Source of the DNA: a virus
Direction: 5' to 3' (one strand)
DNA length: 31,794 nucleotides
Virus record (IMG/VR): IMGVR_UViG_3300027749_000344
Coordinates: 1 to 31,794 of that record
Position 1 is the first letter of the stretch. Each line of letters begins with the position of its first letter. The notes under the pieces are model-generated. The model was not told the origin of the DNA and ran no database searches. It saw only the letters and a list, made by a program, of their open reading frames with translations. The translations under genes were made by a program, and so were the position numbers. This document shows positions 6,000-25,774 of the stretch, piece by piece.

Positions 6000-6374
6000 T
6001 CAGGTAGTCCAACGGAACTCTACAGGCACGGTGGCGGACCACAATGCGCCTTGATCGGTGTAATTGACATCAATTTCGACCGATTGCACCAGCGATGAAT
6101 CTACGCCTGTGATCACGCCACGATCAAAGGCATCTGAAAGCGTTTGAGCCTTGGCAATGATTGCAGTGTCGGAAACATCGAACAGGTAAAACGTGCCGGT
6201 TGTTTCCCAGTCACGATATGTTGTGGTGGGTTCGTTTGGCGTGATTCGGGAAAACCTCAGTACAGCATAAGGCGGCTTGGCAGTCGCCTGAGCCAGTTGA
6301 AACGACAGGGGAAAGTCAGGGAATGTTGCCGACCATTTAACACGGATGGCCTGAATTGTGTTTAAGATATTCAT
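6000..6374 (-). CDS. Tail terminator / completion protein (putative)
   Basis: The product has 124 residues and begins MNILNTIQAIRVKWSATFPD. It has the layout of small tail-terminator proteins (N-terminal helix, then a sheet with a second helix around IIAKAQTLSDAFDRG). It follows the head-tail adaptor gene with an ATGA overlap and precedes the tube gene, matching the usual order of connector, gp10-like, terminator, tube. In that role it would cap the tail tube and join it to the head. Confidence 0.6.
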   Translation of the reverse strand: MNILNTIQAIRVKWSATFPDFPLSFQLAQATAKPPYAVLRFSRITPNEPTTTYRDWETTGTFYLFDVSDTAIIAKAQTLSDAFDRGVITGVDSSLVQSVEIDVNYTDQGALWSATVPVEFRWTT

Positions 6375-9159: not shown

Positions 9160-9795
9160 TTACCGCTTGGCGGCGGTCAATATCGAATCAGCCAATTCCG
9201 CCTGGCGAAACAATTTCGCCAGGTGCTTGGCATCCACCACCGGGGTCGGTGTTTCATCGTCGGAGTGTGCTTTGACACTGATAATCGAGGCGTCTGAGTT
9301 GGCCGGGATCGGCACCACTGAGACTTCAATAATCTCCGATACTTCTTTGATCAGGTTTGCACCCTTTTCAGAGAGCCTGATTTGACTTGCGTTTGGTTTG
9401 TATCCATACCGGTCCCAAAGTTCTGAGACTTGCTTTTTGCTCAATCGTTCCGGTTGTCTTGCCAGAAATGAAATCGACATCTTGCGAACCGCTTTTTCGC
9501 GGAGCAAAGTGCGGATATCCTGACCGGCTTTTGTGGCGGAAAATGTGACATCCACTTTTAAACCAGATCGGTCTTCGGTCGCATCATTCAGCGTGCCGAT
9601 CACGGCGGATGTTTTGTTTTCGTGGTCAGACAGGACCAAGCCACCTGAGTCCATAAAGTCTTGAATTGACTTCTGGAATGCGCCCGGCAAAATGATATCG
9701 CCTTGGCGGTCGATGTTCAGGAAGCGGGCAGCATAGCCCACAAATCCGCCTGTATCGCTTTTTGTGATGCCGGAATCAGTCGATTTAGTGATCAT
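9160..9795 (-). CDS. HK97-type prohead protease (U35)
   Basis: The gene encodes 211 residues. After GGFVGYAARFLNIDRQGDIILPGAF come the conserved LSDHE (His about 58), VIGTL, KMSISF (Ser about 107) and VSVVPIPAN; His and Ser match the catalytic positions of the family. The enzyme processes scaffold and capsid delta domains in the prohead and then itself. GGAGG lies six bases before the ATG at 9795; an adjacent ATG at 9798 is too close. The start overlaps the end of the preceding head gene. The frame is open further upstream inside that gene. Confidence 0.9.
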   Translation of the reverse strand: MITKSTDSGITKSDTGGFVGYAARFLNIDRQGDIILPGAFQKSIQDFMDSGGLVLSDHENKTSAVIGTLNDATEDRSGLKVDVTFSATKAGQDIRTLLREKAVRKMSISFLARQPERLSKKQVSELWDRYGYKPNASQIRLSEKGANLIKEVSEIIEVSVVPIPANSDASIISVKAHSDDETPTPVVDAKHLAKLFRQAELADSILTAAKR

Positions 9796-10696
9796 CATCA
9801 GCCTCCAATATCCGGCCTGTTTTTGTAAATGATTTGGCGTTCCCAACTGCAACCGATTGATATCCAGCCTCTTCAGCCGCAGCAAAGTCGATGTCTGAAG
9901 GCTGTAGGTATCCGTTCTCACCCGGTCTGACAGGTGGTTTTAATCCCTTGGGCATCTCGTCTTCAAAGACTTCCAAGAGAGAACACCGGCAACCAGGGTG
10001 AAATGGTGGAAATTTAAGGTCTTTGTATGTCTTATTCTTACCGTTCGTGCCAAAGGTTCCGCCCTTGGGAATGACCGGACATAACCTGAATATCATTTGA
10101 CACATCGGGCAGGCATCACCGGACAGCAGCAGTTCCCAACCGGTGATAAAGTCCAGCCCCTCAGCAGCACTTGTCAGGCCTGTGTTATACGCCCTGGCTG
10201 ATTCGGTGATTGCAATGCGCCGTGCTCGCCATCGAGCGTTGTCCTTGATCCATGTGCTGATTCGGTTGGTTAATTCTCCAGCCGTTTCGCCCGCCTCAAT
10301 AGATGCTGCGATATCAGCCCGCATACCTTCCAAAGTCCTGAGCGTATCCTGAGTGAACTGCTCGATTGTCTCTTGGCAGAGATCCAGCGTGGCATTGCGT
10401 GCGGCCTCAATCACTTCTGGTGCACGAACCAACCATTGATCCGCATCCTGTTGGCCAAGAGACACCAGAAACGACCGGCCAGATTCGTCAATCCATGCCT
10501 CAATCACTGGGATAAATTGGGCGGCCATATCAATAGGAGCCGTAAAAGGATCGGCTTCCTTTTTCCTGTCGTAAATCGCGAGCCACGGTTTTGCCACGTT
10601 GTTGCCCAGCTCCGTGAGGATCCGGCGGGCAATACGCTCCAACTCCGTGCCGGTTGGCATGGCATTGAGCCTGCTCTTAGGTGTTTTGCGTTTCAA
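9785..10696 (-). CDS. Phage Mu gpF-like minor head protein
   Basis: The 303-residue protein has the family's core: a helical N-terminal half, then RWRARRIAITESARAYNTG, GWELLLSGDACPMCQ and FPPFHPGCRCSLLEV. The paired cysteines and HPGCRC motif are diagnostic of the Mu F / SPP1 gp7 head morphogenesis group, which sits inside the capsid near the portal. The longest reading begins with a TTG at 10696; an ATG at 10660 is an equally likely start. Neither has a strong ribosome site. Unusually, it is separated from the portal gene by 7 kb. Confidence 0.88.
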   Translation of the reverse strand: MKRKTPKSRLNAMPTGTELERIARRILTELGNNVAKPWLAIYDRKKEADPFTAPIDMAAQFIPVIEAWIDESGRSFLVSLGQQDADQWLVRAPEVIEAARNATLDLCQETIEQFTQDTLRTLEGMRADIAASIEAGETAGELTNRISTWIKDNARWRARRIAITESARAYNTGLTSAAEGLDFITGWELLLSGDACPMCQMIFRLCPVIPKGGTFGTNGKNKTYKDLKFPPFHPGCRCSLLEVFEDEMPKGLKPPVRPGENGYLQPSDIDFAAAEEAGYQSVAVGNAKSFTKTGRILEADDDH

Positions 10697-10704
10697 TGTG
10701 CGAT

Positions 10705-11496
10705 TTATGCAAGCACTGGAGGTAAATTGTTTGGGTCATTCACGGTAGCCGCGACACAATAAGCATCCCAGCCATTGCCCTGAACGTTCCGTTCGCCAAT
10801 AGAGCAATAACCCTGACGGCCCCAGCTCACTCCCCATGAGTTCGGCATTCCAATCACCCACTCACCGTTTGGCAACCGTTTCATAAACACACCGCCCGTG
10901 ACAGCGTGGTTGTGCGTTCCTGAGCGGTTCTGTGGTCGGTCGTATTTATCGAGCGTGTTAAAACCGGAATTCACTGGGACTGAGAAGTTAAATGGCATTC
11001 GCAATTGTGATGCAATGCACAGGTCACGAAACGTGTTCAGCCGATATCCGATTTCGATCTTAAATCGTTTGGCATCGTTTCTGGCGGTTGCAGAGATCTT
11101 TGAAGGATTAATAACGCCATATTGCACGAGAGATTCAGTGCATGTACCCTTGTTTTCAAGGTAGACGAGAGCCGCTGCAATATTAGATCCAACATCCCAA
11201 CCATTGCAGAGGTCAGCATACACAAGCCAAGGGCTGAGAGCGACATAAGGAGCACCAGCAATGTAACGACCGATTTCCAAGCTGGATGCCGCTGCATGGC
11301 CATTGCACGCCCCTTTGCCGTTCTGGTCTTTAATCTTGACCGGATACTTTTCGTCTGTTCTCAGGTCAAATTCTCGCCACTCACTTTCGGGAATGTCGGG
11401 AAGTTGCTTGCCCGTGGCGAGCTTGAGAGTGGATTCATGGTTGCCCAAGTATCTCGTTTCGCCGTCTGGAGTGACCCACGACTGAAGTTCAATCAC
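10705..11496 (-). CDS. Papain-family (C1) cysteine peptidase
   Basis: The 263-residue protein carries all four landmarks of the papain fold in order: Gln58 and Cys64 in IKDQNGKGACNGHA (compare QGxCGSCWAF), His197 in THNHAVTGG, and Asn219 in MPNSWGVSWGRQGYC (compare NSWGxxWGxxGY). It thus should be an active thiol peptidase without an obvious propeptide; residues 1-50 may be a short pro-region. GGAGG precedes a GTG start that overlaps (GTGA) the stop of the preceding gene. No signal peptide is seen. Papain-type enzymes are rare among phage structural genes; roles in virion maturation, entry or host proteolysis are all open. Confidence 0.88.
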   Translation of the reverse strand: MIELQSWVTPDGETRYLGNHESTLKLATGKQLPDIPESEWREFDLRTDEKYPVKIKDQNGKGACNGHAAASSLEIGRYIAGAPYVALSPWLVYADLCNGWDVGSNIAAALVYLENKGTCTESLVQYGVINPSKISATARNDAKRFKIEIGYRLNTFRDLCIASQLRMPFNFSVPVNSGFNTLDKYDRPQNRSGTHNHAVTGGVFMKRLPNGEWVIGMPNSWGVSWGRQGYCSIGERNVQGNGWDAYCVAATVNDPNNLPPVLA

Positions 11497-12002
11497 TTGA
11501 TCACCTCCACGAGCTTCAAGATGTCATCCTTGGTCTTGGGACTCGTAGACTTGACGATTTTTCCGTTTTGATCCTGTAAGATTACGGCCGGTAAACCGAT
11601 CTGCCCAACGGTGGTTTGAAACCCTAGTCGATCTATGTCCACTTCCCCTGCGATGTACGATCTGTACTGAATCCCACGACTTTCCAGTAACTTGCGGATC
11701 TCTGGATCGGTACGCCATGCTTGCTGCTCCGGTTTGGATTCATCCACAACAACCGAAAACCACTTGATGCCAGCCACCGGCTGAGGCTTTTCGTCCTCGT
11801 CTGGAACTGGTGGCGGAACTGGTCGAACACCACCCTGTTCTATGGCGATAACGCTTCCACTGGACTTGCCCACAAAGTAGGTAAATCCACCATGACTAAA
11901 CACCACCCGTTCCTCGACTGCTGGGGGAACCAGAGTCGAGGGAACAGGTTGTTGAGCAAGCAGAACTGCGATCAGAAGTCCGATCACAGGCCAACCTCCC
12001 AT
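11493..12002 (-). CDS. Exported protein with thioredoxin-like fold (putative)
   Basis: The 169-residue product begins with a hydrophobic stretch (WPVIGLLIAVLLA) that fits a signal peptide or anchor, then a Pro-rich linker near 60-75. The C-terminal 95 residues (WFSVVVDESKPEQQAWRTDP, then DIDRLGFQTTVGQIGLPAVI) have the alternating strand/helix arrangement and a GLPAV loop where thioredoxins have the cis-proline. No CxxC is seen, so redox activity is unlikely. It overlaps both neighbours. It may be a periplasmic partner of the following peptidase; that is inference. Confidence 0.6.
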   Translation of the reverse strand: MGGWPVIGLLIAVLLAQQPVPSTLVPPAVEERVVFSHGGFTYFVGKSSGSVIAIEQGGVRPVPPPVPDEDEKPQPVAGIKWFSVVVDESKPEQQAWRTDPEIRKLLESRGIQYRSYIAGEVDIDRLGFQTTVGQIGLPAVILQDQNGKIVKSTSPKTKDDILKLVEVIK

Positions 12003-12172
12003 TGAACAGATTTGAGCTGTGCCTGAATCGAGTCTTCACGCTGATTCATGGCCAACTTGACGCTGGATTCGTCGATGCTCACCAGCTCACCGTTGGCCAG
12101 CCTGGAGAGCATCTCGCGGATGACCTCAACGATGATCGGTGTCAGCAATCGGATAATGATCTTGCTGATCAT
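11984..12172 (-). CDS. Small protein with hydrophobic N-terminus
   Basis: The product has 62 residues and starts at an ATG overlapping the previous stop (ATGA); a GTG two codons upstream is also possible. Residues 1-20 (MISKIIIRLLTPIIVEVIRE) form an amphipathic or membrane-associated helix; the rest is charged and helical. Its end overlaps the start of the exported thioredoxin-like gene. Such small proteins are common in lysis regions, but no family is recognised. Confidence 0.6.
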   Translation of the reverse strand: MISKIIIRLLTPIIVEVIREMLSRLANGELVSIDESSVKLAMNQREDSIQAQLKSVQWEVGL

Positions 12173-12393
12173 TTGCACGCACCATTCACACAGATGAACA
12201 CTTTTGGCTCTTGGAAGAGCCGTGGTAGTGCCAGTCGTCTCTTTGGCCGTTCAGGGGCGAAGAAGATCACAGGGGCCGTTTTTGGCGATTCTGTGACGGC
12301 CACGGTTTTGGTGGTCGTTGTGGTCACTGTCTGCTTTGGACACTGGCCGGACTGACAGGATTGAGCTGCGTAGATCATGAACTCTGCGAACAA
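12169..12393 (-). CDS. Small cysteine-containing protein, possibly exported
   Basis: The reading has 74 residues with a TTG start at 12393 preceded by AAGG six or seven bases away; an ATG at 12378 is the alternative. It has a short hydrophobic N-terminus, a CxxxxC pair (CQSGQC), a Thr run and a final CVNGAC. No known domain. It is the first gene after the triple-hairpin segment. Coding status is supported by the ATGA overlap with the next gene. Confidence 0.5.
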   Translation of the reverse strand: MFAEFMIYAAQSCQSGQCPKQTVTTTTTKTVAVTESPKTAPVIFFAPERPKRRLALPRLFQEPKVFICVNGACK

Positions 12394-12535: not shown

Positions 12536-12721
12536 TCACTTTTTTGGGTCTCTTAAAGACCTACGATAAGCTGCGATTGCGTAGATGATTGCGGCCAATG
12601 CGTACATGGTTTGCGGAATTGACGGATCGACAGAACTGCCTTGAACCGCTTTATCTGTGACGATTTGAGCCACAGGAACGATCCATCCATAATCTGGATT
12701 CACAATTTCCTCGATTCGCAT
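12536..12721 (-). CDS. Small membrane protein, holin candidate
   Basis: The 61-residue protein has one membrane segment near residues 38-53 (TMYALAAIIYAIAAYRRS) and a basic C-terminus (RRSLRDPKK), with a soluble N-terminal part. AAGGG lies upstream of the ATG. Size and topology fit class III holins or small lysis-accessory proteins. Three such membrane proteins are encoded within 1.2 kb, so which one is a holin cannot be said. Confidence 0.6.
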   Translation of the reverse strand: MRIEEIVNPDYGWIVPVAQIVTDKAVQGSSVDPSIPQTMYALAAIIYAIAAYRRSLRDPKK

Positions 12722-12726
12722 TTAGA

Positions 12727-12948
12727 TCAACCCTTTGGAGCTGGTGGCGTTTGGCCAGAATTCAGGTAGTAGATCGCCTGGGCAATCCCAAACGCCAAAG
12801 CCATGCCTAAGGGGCTGGTCGTTGCAACGATGGAGTCAAGGTTTTGACTAAGCACTCCCAGTGCGGAAACCGCACCTACCAGAGCCATGCGGATGATGAT
12901 CGCTCTGGCTTGCATCGAGTTGATTTGGCCAATCCAGTTCGGTTGCAT
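12727..12948 (-). CDS. Small membrane protein, holin candidate
   Basis: The 73-residue protein has two likely membrane segments: about residues 17-34 (IIIRMALVGAVSALGVL) and 44-62 (SPLGMALAFGIAQAIYYL). The N-terminus is polar and the C-terminus is Pro/Lys-containing. AAGGG precedes the ATG. Two segments with a short loop match class II holins. It follows the nuclease gene. Confidence 0.6.
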   Translation of the reverse strand: MQPNWIGQINSMQARAIIIRMALVGAVSALGVLSQNLDSIVATTSPLGMALAFGIAQAIYYLNSGQTPPAPKG

Positions 12949-12949
12949 A

Positions 12950-13306
12950 TCAGTTCCCTTGTGGTACGTTGAAACCAGCCTGAATCATATGTTCTGATAC
13001 CGACTCAATCCCTGTCTGGTGGATCACATAAACATCAGCCAAGTATCTGGCAAAGGTCTGCTGGAAGTCTTGAGTCGTTGTGATCACCAGTTGTTTGCCA
13101 GCCAGAAGCGATTCCAGTTCAGCTTTTGCTCGTATGCCGTCTGCTACGTGAGCTTTGTGCATTTCAGGAGCGTTATAGCCCTTAAATCTCACATGCTGAG
13201 TAGTCGCAACGTCAAAGCCGAGGTCGATTAGCAGGACAGCCGTATCACCGTCGATGATTCGTTCTAATCGTGCTGCGTAAGTGTAGTTGACGACTGGCTC
13301 TGGCAT
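12950..13306 (-). CDS. Staphylococcal nuclease-like (SNase) protein
   Basis: The product has 118 residues, all one SNase domain: RIIDGDTAVLLIDLG (the calcium-binding Asp), HVRFKGYNAPEMHK (Arg and Glu of the active site), then TFARYLADVYV (second arginine). All catalytic positions of staphylococcal nuclease are kept. No signal peptide is seen. The start at 13306 overlaps the preceding stop as TAATG, with GAGG upstream; the frame is open to 13354. Phage SNases may degrade host DNA or trim DNA; inside a fibre/lysis block its role is unknown. Confidence 0.85.
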   Translation of the reverse strand: MPEPVVNYTYAARLERIIDGDTAVLLIDLGFDVATTQHVRFKGYNAPEMHKAHVADGIRAKAELESLLAGKQLVITTTQDFQQTFARYLADVYVIHQTGIESVSEHMIQAGFNVPQGN

Positions 13307-13551
13307 TAGATTGGCCTCGGTTTGGGTGGCACTGGGATGACCGATGGGTTCCACTTGTAATTTGGGTCGTCAAGATAGTTTTGAAACACTGGAGCAGGGG
13401 CATTGACGAGCTGAGTGATTAATTGGGCGTGCCGCTTGGAGTCCAAGTTATATCGCTCGATTGCATTTTGCCGTGCAGCTCGTTTTGCCATTTCTTCAGG
13501 CGATGGCTTCTGTCTGCCTATCATCCAGTCAAGAAATTCTCTACCAGTCAT
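13306..13551 (-). CDS. Small hypothetical protein
   Basis: The 81-residue protein starts at an ATG overlapping the previous stop (ATGA, 13548-13551). The N-terminal 45 residues are helical and basic (FLDWMIGRQKPSPEEMAKRA, then RQNAIERYNL), and the C-terminus is Pro-rich (SVIPVPPKPRPI). The longer frame to 13833 is a shadow. Possibly a cytoplasmic partner of the membrane protein before it. No family recognised. Confidence 0.6.
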   Translation of the reverse strand: MTGREFLDWMIGRQKPSPEEMAKRAARQNAIERYNLDSKRHAQLITQLVNAPAPVFQNYLDDPNYKWNPSVIPVPPKPRPI

Positions 13552-13757
13552 TTGCTGAGTCCTCTTGGAACGGTGAAACAGTGGCCTAAAACGACTCCAA
13601 TGCCGAGTGCAAAGCCTAGAGAGTGCTGGTTGACTTCCCAGATACTTTCCGACCATGTCACTCCGCCGCTTTGCCACTTGACCAGATCGACAATCAGCAG
13701 CACGATTGCAACTGTGATCAACACGACAAAGTTCTTGGCGGCAGTGCTGAACGTCAT
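13548..13757 (-). CDS. Small membrane protein, holin candidate
   Basis: The 69-residue protein has a strong membrane segment near residues 9-27 (FVVLITVAIVLLIVDLV) and a weaker one near 46-64 (SLGFALGIGVVLGHCFTV), joined by a polar loop. It is coupled by TAATG to the preceding gene and by ATGA to the next. Its topology fits a class II holin, but two other candidates are near. Confidence 0.65.
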   Translation of the reverse strand: MTFSTAAKNFVVLITVAIVLLIVDLVKWQSGGVTWSESIWEVNQHSLGFALGIGVVLGHCFTVPRGLSK

Positions 13758-22682: not shown

Positions 22683-22887
22683 TATCTGACTCCAGAGGGA
22701 TGTAGATTATCTCGCATTCCTCTCCCACATCAAGAATCCTTTCCTCAACCGCCATAGCAGGCACGCACTCGCCTATCCACTCGCCACATGGTGCAAGGTC
22801 TGCCAATCCACATCCGCAATCCTGAATACACAGTCCATCAGCGCCCATCTGCTCAAGCTGGTTCTTCAATATCTCAAGAGCTGTCAC
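22675..22887 (-). CDS. Small cysteine-rich phage protein
   Basis: The 70-residue product starts at a GTG with GGAGG five bases before it; this start overlaps the ThyX stop (GTGA). The middle has CIQDCGCGLADLAPCGE then WIGECVPA: a five- to six-cysteine motif seen in many small phage proteins of unknown role ('ADGL....CGC...DL.PC......C.PA'). It likely binds zinc. Confidence 0.75.
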   Translation of the reverse strand: MTALEILKNQLEQMGADGLCIQDCGCGLADLAPCGEWIGECVPAMAVEERILDVGEECEIIYIPLESDNE

Positions 22888-23648
22888 ACTTTCCTCCAAT
22901 TCGTTTCGATTCCATTTTCAGTCACCGTGTAATCACCAAAAAGATTTGGCGATTCAGCCTGCAACACGTTCAAAACTGCAATTGCCAGCCGTTGAATTTC
23001 AGCGTCCGCATGTATCGAGCCACGCAATTCCAAGAAGTGCCGCCATGCTCTGGCATTACCTGTCACGAAGATCTTGGTTTCAGTGCAATTGGGGAGGACA
23101 GCACGAGCGGCCTCGCGAGATTTCTTGCGTCGAAGTGTCGGGCTGTCGATGTCGGCAAAGTCGTTGTATTCCAGCGTTTCGCACAGCGCCTCGTAATGTC
23201 CCTGCGCTCGGCCAATGGCCTGAGCCCAGATCGCTTCTGGCGTGCTTCCCGGCTTAATGCCTGGTGGTCGCACAAACGCACAGTCCGACTCGTCCACATA
23301 TCGTTGACTTAGCTGGCTGTAACTCATCCCAGCACGATGTCTGACCAGCTCGTGAGTCAATGACCGTGAGACGCCAGTGAAGATCATCGAGTAAACAGCA
23401 TGCTCAAGAACTGAGCCGTGGCCCACTTCCAAGATGTGGTCGATATAAGCTTTGTTCCCACCTGGTCGAGGTTTGGCAAAACTCATGTAGCACAATCGGC
23501 CAGCGATCTCCACAAGATGTTCGCTAGCATTGTCAGTGTCGCTGTTCCAATGTTCGACTCCGTGAGCTTCAAGGAACTCGGCACAATCAAGGCTGTTGAG
23601 TTCTTGTTTGCCGACCAGGTAGACGGATGGTTTTGTGATGATGTTCAT
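22884..23648 (-). CDS. thyX: FAD-dependent thymidylate synthase ThyX
   Basis: The 254-residue enzyme carries the ThyX motif RHRAGMSYSQLSQRYVD (Arg103-His104-Arg105, then eight residues to Ser114 and Arg116), matching RHRX7-8S. VLEHAVYSMIFTGVSRS just before and ARAWRHFLELRGSIHADAEI near the C-terminus are further conserved parts. It makes dTMP from dUMP using methylene-tetrahydrofolate and FAD, supplying thymidine for phage DNA. The ATG overlaps the preceding stop (ATGA). Confidence 0.95.
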   Translation of the reverse strand: MNIITKPSVYLVGKQELNSLDCAEFLEAHGVEHWNSDTDNASEHLVEIAGRLCYMSFAKPRPGGNKAYIDHILEVGHGSVLEHAVYSMIFTGVSRSLTHELVRHRAGMSYSQLSQRYVDESDCAFVRPPGIKPGSTPEAIWAQAIGRAQGHYEALCETLEYNDFADIDSPTLRRKKSREAARAVLPNCTETKIFVTGNARAWRHFLELRGSIHADAEIQRLAIAVLNVLQAESPNLFGDYTVTENGIETNWRKV

Positions 23649-24415: not shown

Positions 24416-25233
24416 ATGTCAAACTCCTTAATCAAGATGTGGCCGTGGCATGGTTCTGGATAGCACCAACAGCCCATAATCCGACCACGAAGCGATTGGT
24501 GAGTGAGTTTTCGCAGACTAGGCTTTTTCGTAAGATAATCAGCGTAGTTAGCGATAACGGTTTCACGGTCGCCGTCTTCGTCCAGAACAAAGGGATTTCC
24601 CCATATAGAGTTGCGGTCAATGCGGCAGTAAATACCCTCCGCCTGTGCTACCTTAATCAAGGCTGAATCTGTGTGCTGATTCGCTAGTTGACCGTAGCCC
24701 ATTTTCGCCAGTCTTAATCGGCGTTGCTGATCTTCAGTCAGACCGCTCAAGTCTAATTCCGTTGGGGTAGTCTTAGCCTGGTTGAAACTGGCTTTCGCTT
24801 CCTTAACATCGCGACTGTTGATCGTGTCGCGGCCATGCTCAGCAGCAATCGCCTTGGCTTGCTCGGCTATTGCTGGACGATCTTCGGCAGAAACCGAGAT
24901 GAACTCTCGTGCTGTCGTCTCGTTAGGAATGTTAACGGTCGTTAACAGTTCTCCAGCAATCGCAGCGGATTGGATCTGCATGTGCGCGAAATTTCGACTA
25001 AATCCCCACTTGCTCTGGCAATATTCCTCGAAAGTGTCAAACTCGCCTCGATAAAGCCGTTTGACCCTGATTTCCATCAAGGCTGTTCCGACTTCAACAA
25101 ACGCTTGCTTGCCGCGATTGATGACGGTTTCAAGTTGTTGCAGCTTTGTTTGTTCAAGCTCGCTTAATGATCCAGCGATAATCGTAGGATCAACGATATT
25201 AATTTCAGATTCATTCACTGGTGACAACTCCAT
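24412..25233 (-). CDS. ParB-like/DUF3102-type domain fused to DUF4326
   Basis: The product has 273 residues. Residues 30-150 contain LMEIRVKRLYRGEFDTFEEYCQSKWGFSRNFAHM-like helical sequence typical of plasmid and phage proteins related to ParB/DUF3102 N-terminal regions. Residues 200-273 hold a DUF4326 domain: IDRNSIWGNPFVL (211-215) and CWCYPEPCHGHIL (Cys255, Cys257, Cys262, His263). Between them is a short linker. The fusion joins a likely DNA-binding module to a domain of unknown, possibly base- or nucleotide-related, activity. The ATG at 25233 lies inside the csrA gene. Confidence 0.75.
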   Translation of the reverse strand: MELSPVNESEINIVDPTIIAGSLSELEQTKLQQLETVINRGKQAFVEVGTALMEIRVKRLYRGEFDTFEEYCQSKWGFSRNFAHMQIQSAAIAGELLTTVNIPNETTAREFISVSAEDRPAIAEQAKAIAAEHGRDTINSRDVKEAKASFNQAKTTPTELDLSGLTEDQQRRLRLAKMGYGQLANQHTDSALIKVAQAEGIYCRIDRNSIWGNPFVLDEDGDRETVIANYADYLTKKPSLRKLTHQSLRGRIMGCWCYPEPCHGHILIKEFDI

Positions 25234-25405
25234 TATTCCGTTGTTTCGCTTCCCACACTTCCAGCCGATCCACTCTGACTTCAAGTGGAGCTTCGACACC
25301 AATCTTGACCTTGTCGCCCCTGATCTCAGTGACGCAAACCCTAAATTGAATGGAACCGTAGTTAATGACAAGGACTTCATTGACCTTCCGTGATAGCACA
25401 AGCAT
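25211..25405 (-). CDS. csrA: CsrA-family translational regulator
   Basis: The protein has 64 residues and matches CsrA throughout: MLVLSRKVNEVLVI, then VTEIRGDKVKIGVEAP and VRVDRLEVWE. Leu4 and Arg6 of the RNA-binding N-terminal strand and the region of Arg44 are kept. CsrA dimers bind GGA motifs in mRNA leaders and control translation or stability. GGAGG lies six bases before the ATG. Here it heads a gene cluster after a tRNA-like element. It may redirect host mRNAs or act on phage transcripts. Confidence 0.93.
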   Translation of the reverse strand: MLVLSRKVNEVLVINYGSIQFRVCVTEIRGDKVKIGVEAPLEVRVDRLEVWEAKQRNNGVVTSE

Positions 25406-25774
25406 GTGTAACCTCCGTGATGCGTTTGATTTGATGCCGGGAGTGGTCAAACTCCCGGCGCGAGTATGATCAGTCAACTCCCCCTGGTATCCTTGTGAGT
25501 TCGGCAGGCTGATTGCCCACGAACAAACTCGAATCAACCAACTAGGAGTCTGTCAGCAGGCTCGATATCGGTCGGCCTCTGACAAGTCGCGTGTAGGAAT
25601 CGAACCTACCGAAAGCCCTATTGGTAAGGGCTATTGCCCAGCCGCGACAAATGCCATCCTTGGCGACCATCACCATCCATGAATCCCGTTTGACATCTGC
25701 TCATTACTGATCGCGCTCACGAACCTTCGCCACAGATGTCACCGCCACAGTCACCGGAGTTCCAAGCCTCTCTT
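25406..25774. other. Longest intergenic stretch, with a tRNA-like element and small frames
   Basis: These 369 bases hold the tRNA-like element at 25585-25648. Two small minus-strand frames cannot be excluded: a 27-codon frame that begins inside the end of the gene at 25775 (MNQSRQAAKREAWNSGDC...) and a 28-codon frame that runs into the tRNA-like element. Neither has a good ribosome site. Otherwise I see nothing. Confidence 0.5.
25585..25648 (-). tRNA. tRNA-like element lacking a normal D arm
   Basis: On the minus strand GTCGCGG pairs with ACGCGAC at six of seven positions. The T arm is perfect: GTAGG, TTCGATT, CCTAC, matching the internal B box. A 6-bp anticodon-like stem AGCCCT/AGGGCT closes the loop TACCAAT, but residue 33 is not U in that register. 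Only nine bases (CTGGGCAAT) stand where a D arm of about 17 is expected, although GGGCAATAGCCC could form an alternative small D hairpin. Total about 64 bases, with no encoded CCA. It may be a degraded phage tRNA, a mimic, or a scar of an attachment site. Confidence 0.5.

Follow-up and report, generated by a model that had tools for sequence, protein, structure and literature searches.

A C1 papain coupled to a cysteine-less thioredoxin-fold protein as a candidate lysis enzyme of small environmental phages

Background

What purpose a papain-like peptidase might serve among the late genes of a phage was the question raised by a 31,794-nt viral sequence (IMG/VR record IMGVR_UViG_3300027749_000344), the whole of which is referred to here as the window. 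A reading of the sequence alone had noted papain-like catalytic residues in one open reading frame (ORF), located between the gene for an exported thioredoxin-like (Trx) protein and a head morphogenesis gene, and had offered entry, lysis or counter-defence as possible roles. Phage C1A peptidases are already known in Caudoviricetes (PMC10380794). No assigned role for the phage papains on record was found in the literature searched.

Results

Identity of the peptidase

The gene in question, and the protease that would ordinarily serve the capsid, were as follows:

10705..11496, minus strand: 263-aa cysteine peptidase with a C1 papain fold, starting at GTG; catalytic residues Q58, C64, H197 and N219
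9160..9921, minus strand: prohead (S78) maturation protease (PF04586, 4e-19), an ordinary maturation enzyme separate from the papain

The first ORF matched PF00112 (Peptidase_C1) with E = 2.8e-8 and 34.5 bits, against a gathering cut-off of 20.7. This was its sole Pfam match; there was no lysin domain, no wall-binding domain, no match to I29 and none to PF04586. Its PHROGs match was phrog_16701, 'peptidase', while sequence matches in the PDB were to cathepsin K, dionain and bromelain. An AlphaFold2 model built on a 32-sequence alignment (pLDDT 87, pTM 0.86) was compared with the PDB using Foldseek, which placed xylellain first, followed by cathepsins and plant papains (E ~1e-10). The assignment to the papain family was thus confirmed by sequence and by predicted structure.

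Relatives of the papain recovered from IMG/VR scans spanned 100% down to 27% identity. Among 33 diverse sequences, all of which matched PF00112 (E <= 0.01), Q58, C64 and H197 were invariant when aligned and N219 was nearly so; the four residues noted in the first reading make up the Gln-Cys-His-Asn active site of the family. Regular expressions for the Q-C, H and NSW motifs were all present in 86 of 88 relatives. One of the two exceptions was truncated by the end of its contig, while the other, L093, had GSW and had lost Asn219. Values of dN/dS between the window papain and close relatives were 0.07–0.16, indicating purifying selection. Neither a signal peptide nor a transmembrane (TM) segment was seen in the window papain by hydropathy. 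Judged by family, fold and active-site residues, the ORF is a genuine C1 papain, with predicted proteolytic activity.

The thioredoxin-fold partner

Two features immediately upstream define the coupling of the papain to its neighbour:

11493..12002, minus strand: exported or membrane-anchored Trx-fold protein, with an N-terminal hydrophobic segment, Pro-rich linker and C-terminal thioredoxin fold
11499..11508, minus strand: Shine-Dalgarno-like GGAGGTGATC, within the 3' end of the Trx gene and ahead of the GTGA overlap, in the window and in relatives

The C-terminal half of the partner was modelled at pLDDT ~90, and Foldseek related the model to ResA, DsbD-gamma and thioredoxin with a probability of 1.00, but with E values of only 2e-3 and weaker. 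A CxxC motif was found in none of 28 relatives examined, and the window copy lacked cysteine altogether. Since there is no CxxC, the partner is a thioredoxin fold and not an oxidoreductase, and a redox role was rejected. The stop codon of the Trx gene and the start codon of the papain overlapped by 4 nt (GTGA), which was also usual among other such couplets. Therefore, translational coupling to an exported protein of thioredoxin fold held good, while any reading of that protein as a redox enzyme did not.

The two genes differed in their divergence. In the window (10705-12002) dS for the papain was ~1.3 against close kin, far above ~0.3 for the Trx gene, and the C-terminal half of the papain resembled that of L049. 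Together, these observations indicate a likely recombination breakpoint near the junction of the two genes.

Distribution of the couplet

A Trx-like gene lay directly upstream of the papain in 75 of 88 loci, and some of the remainder were explained by contig ends or inserted genes. The partner was undetected in 89-kb phages (L083/L084), while the couplet was present in a 595-kb phage (LR756511), where papain identity was 29%. Exported Cys-rich and low-complexity proteins that look host-derived were seen near the couplet of the 595-kb phage (L043, 14996-16414). Where extra genes had entered, they could sit exactly between Trx and papain (L099, 7298-7786; just after Trx in L182 and L184); these included a 162-aa acetyltransferase-like and, by eye, a 279-aa PAPS-reductase-like gene, and the tight gene overlaps were kept.

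Twenty relatives were compared gene by gene; each had been picked for having the papain, and so they give no measure of its prevalence among phages. At least two virion types were represented. Many of the 20 shared a block comprising fibre genes, the w13757 gene, small ORFs, Trx and papain, without having head or tail genes in common; for instance, the portal and capsid matches of G010 belonged to families other than those of the window. As the couplet occurs with unrelated head and tail modules, it evidently travels independently of head genes. The gene downstream of the papain was MuF (PF04233) in the window, as first described, but a capsid gene or non-homologous genes in relatives; this adjacency is therefore incidental.

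Two conserved-pattern scans of 84,980 species genomes found no bacterial relative of the papain, which, within the limits of the patterns, fits a phage-specific family. The host may be a member of the Planctomycetota, as sequence style hints. A tblastn search of plasmids and phages with the integrase gave only partial Acinetobacter matches at ~25%, and a search for PSCyt1 produced no match in phages and none in controls either. A phage-encoded CsrA (PF02599; window 25211-25537) and, by eye, a ThyX-like ORF (22884-23648) were shared by the window with roughly half of its relatives.

Replacement by a second papain

The 69-aa membrane ORF of the cassette (listed below) was used as an independent anchor, yielding 70 cassettes with more than 3.5 kb downstream. 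Trx was followed by the papain described above (type 1) in 52 of these, 17 had Trx without a type-1 papain, and one had neither. In those 17 cassettes Trx was followed, in a few of them with one inserted gene in between, by an ORF for a different protein of ~302 aa, which carried NQGSCGSC, HQ and NSWG motifs and also matched PF00112 (E = 1.9e-6). BLAST detected no significant similarity between this type-2 papain and type 1; the two aligned by profile only (95% probability, E = 3e-8). A direct search identified 29 type-2 loci, including non-independent phages, and Trx was upstream in all 27 that were testable (21 adjacent, 6 within 0.84 kb). Because a remote second C1 papain replaces the first behind the same Trx gene, the slot selects for a papain; it is a papain that is conserved here, and not one particular gene.

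Absence of a recognisable lysin

Eight lysin families were searched for (Amidase_2, NlpC/P60, SLT, Phage_lysozyme, M15_4, CHAP, M23 and Amidase_3), and control genomes gave matches in every search. None of the eight was found in 24 related records of 28–47 kb, three of which had terminal repeats. Across 26 records in all, seven families were absent and M23 occurred only in the 89-kb and 595-kb phages, as an enzyme separate from the papain. Amidase_2 was also absent from 12 type-2 records. No lysin was matched in the window by Pfam, by the lysin-family searches or among the best 25 of 28 PHROGs families, nor by Pfam scans of G010, nor by Pfam among proteins of G001, G002 and G008 beyond those shared with the window. 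Terminal repeats, of 127 bp and exact in both G002 and G008, and of 144 bp at 99.3% in G001, make these three genomes look complete. The window had neither a terminal repeat nor an integrase match, and may therefore be incomplete. The earlier remark that the window has no recognised endolysin was thus sustained and extended to the 24 related records; the searches indicate that a recognisable peptidoglycan hydrolase is absent from the 28–47-kb phages, although a lysin of unknown family would escape detection.

Membrane-protein ORFs of the cassette

The couplet terminates a run of small membrane-protein ORFs. In the window, the cassette upstream of Trx comprised:

11984..12172, minus strand: 62-aa ORF with N-terminal hydrophobic/amphipathic helix and charged tail, kept in relatives just upstream of Trx
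12169..12393, minus strand: ~74-aa ORF, start uncertain, with SCQSGQCP near the start and ICVNGACK at the end; conserved in relatives, no family match
12536..12721, minus strand: 61-aa ORF with one hydrophobic stretch
12727..12948, minus strand: holin-like ORF of 73 aa, in which the hydropathy threshold gives one TM and a second looks likely by eye
12950..13354, minus strand: SNase-like endonuclease (phrog_452 endonuclease, 5e-23), accessory and not constant in the cassette
13306..13551, minus strand: 81-aa soluble ORF, function unassigned
13548..13757, minus strand: 69-aa two-TM ORF with a GHCFTVP motif, a cassette marker and probably part of the fibre module

Holin and spanin candidates were assigned by hydropathy and by eye. 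Some kin copies of the 73-aa ORF scored two TM, and searches of Pfam, PHROGs and other family libraries gave it no convincing match; indeed, these libraries convincingly named none of the short TM ORFs upstream of Trx. Two alternative kinds of ORF occupied the holin-like place. At the place of the 61-aa ORF, kin had ORFs of 90-103 aa that contained TM segments and ended in a charged C-terminus. In the distant kin L079, L117 and L081, the ORF directly upstream of Trx was Rz-like, combining a TM segment with what may be a coiled coil. Other relatives had a two-TM ORF at about the place of the SNase-like endonuclease. The 69-aa ORF was doubted as a holin, since it is found with w13757 in the 194-kb phage L225, which has no Trx or papain there; at that locus (6001-6228) these two ORFs of the fibre side are followed by glycosyltransferase-like genes.

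Discussion

The best reading of these observations is that the papain is a lysis enzyme with a Trx-like partner, to which we would assign a little under an even chance. It derives from gene context, which among the three roles first offered favours lysis without proving it. The gene order resembles that of holin, accessory gene and endolysin, with the papain at the place of the enzyme, and the lack of a signal peptide on the papain is as expected for release by a holin. Mycobacteriophage LysA, with its papain-family N5 domains (PMC3314691), offers a precedent, and the structural neighbours of the papain among viral proteins include some named 'Peptidoglycan binding-like' and 'N acetylmuramidase'.

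Under the lysis model, the locus would be a two-gene module, in which a membrane-anchored or periplasmic, Cys-less Trx-fold protein is coupled to a cytoplasmic, xylellain-like C1 papain. The papain would build up in the cytoplasm as the lysis effector until one of the small membrane proteins, acting as a holin, released it, whereupon it would cut peptide bonds of the envelope, either in peptidoglycan stem peptides and cross-links or in envelope-tethering proteins. On the membrane side, the Trx-like protein would act as the papain's partner, serving in docking, folding or restraint. More tentatively, the module may represent a widespread lysis system in phages encoding no classical endolysin, where the role of the peptidoglycan hydrolase would be taken by a true C1 papain, recruited on at least two occasions and acting together with a dedicated Cys-less Trx-fold membrane partner. 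Several facts count against lysis: the couplet of the 595-kb jumbo phage lies among other exported proteins that are not obvious holins, the papain has no wall-binding domain, two large phages possess M23, and one relative (L093) is without Asn219. We know of no C1A peptidase that cleaves peptidoglycan.

It is unlikely, by comparison, that the papain is a virion-borne enzyme of entry or adsorption, packaged or attached to the fibre or tail, which digests host surface or periplasmic proteins. The couplet does lie near a fibre/lectin module in many 28–47-kb phages, and the C1 papain of the 89-kb phage G024, which has no Trx, comes after a repeat-rich fibre-like gene. However, an export signal is present on the partner but absent from the papain, and this points to action within the cell that produces them; furthermore, the C1 peptidase of phage XacN1 is not named among the enzymes detected in its virions (PMC5852040).

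Two further roles seem improbable to us. If the papain processed tail fibres or other phage proteins from its own operon, and the Trx-like protein were an assembly or export factor, the papain's position in one apparent operon with the fibres and the w13757 protein would be explained, as would its soluble, cytoplasmic character by hydropathy. Yet two very remote papains fill the one slot, which would require matching cleavage sites, capsids are already served by the prohead protease, and L225 manages w13757 and the 69-aa ORF without a papain. An anti-host module, degrading envelope or defence proteins of the host or excluding superinfection from a lysogen, is given equally little weight. An integrase-like ORF in 19 of 20 kin means that they are probably temperate, in some kin the junction of Trx and papain has taken up other genes, as in moron-rich spots, and the exported proteins around the jumbo-phage couplet would suit this role as well as one in modifying the envelope. 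Against this, the papain is kept in nearly every cassette, being swapped and not lost, unlike an optional accessory gene, and the couplet is within the late structural region. Head maturation was rejected, for an S78 protease is present, as the sequence-only reading had recognised, and the couplet shifts from one head module to another that is unrelated to it.

The combination of the couplet, its second-papain replacement and the lack of a recognisable lysin in complete-looking genomes gives the phage papain a specific, testable role. Were lysis correct, small environmental phages would breach the envelope by means of a papain and not a classical wall hydrolase; this would be informative about the host envelope and would add a new class of lysis enzyme.

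Comparison with known systems

A papain in a phage is known in kind, while neither the couplet with a Cys-less Trx-fold partner nor the way in which it persists when a second papain takes the place of the first was found described in the open-access literature searched. The nearest viral counterpart, BFVD entry A0A6J7XQB9 ('Peptidase C1A', uncultured Caudovirales phage), has 58% identity over 263 aa and a TM score of 0.94; it evidently belongs to the same family, and its name is automatic as far as the table shows. The partner has the fold of thioredoxin, ResA and DsbD-gamma in its C-terminal domain, and differs from them in the missing CxxC. Short C1A enzymes of xylellain type (Xylella fastidiosa xylellain, PDB 3OIS) share with the window papain the same fold, the Q/C/H/N residues and a short N-terminal region. 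The window family differs in having no relative in the bacterial genome scans, in its coupling to a Cys-less, exported Trx-fold protein, and in its place in a cassette after membrane-protein ORFs. The N5 domains of mycobacteriophage LysA belong to the papain family (PMC3314691), and so are likewise papain-family peptidases within a phage lysis protein; LysA is modular, usually with more catalytic and wall-binding domains, whereas the window papain has a single domain and its likeness to LysA is one of fold.
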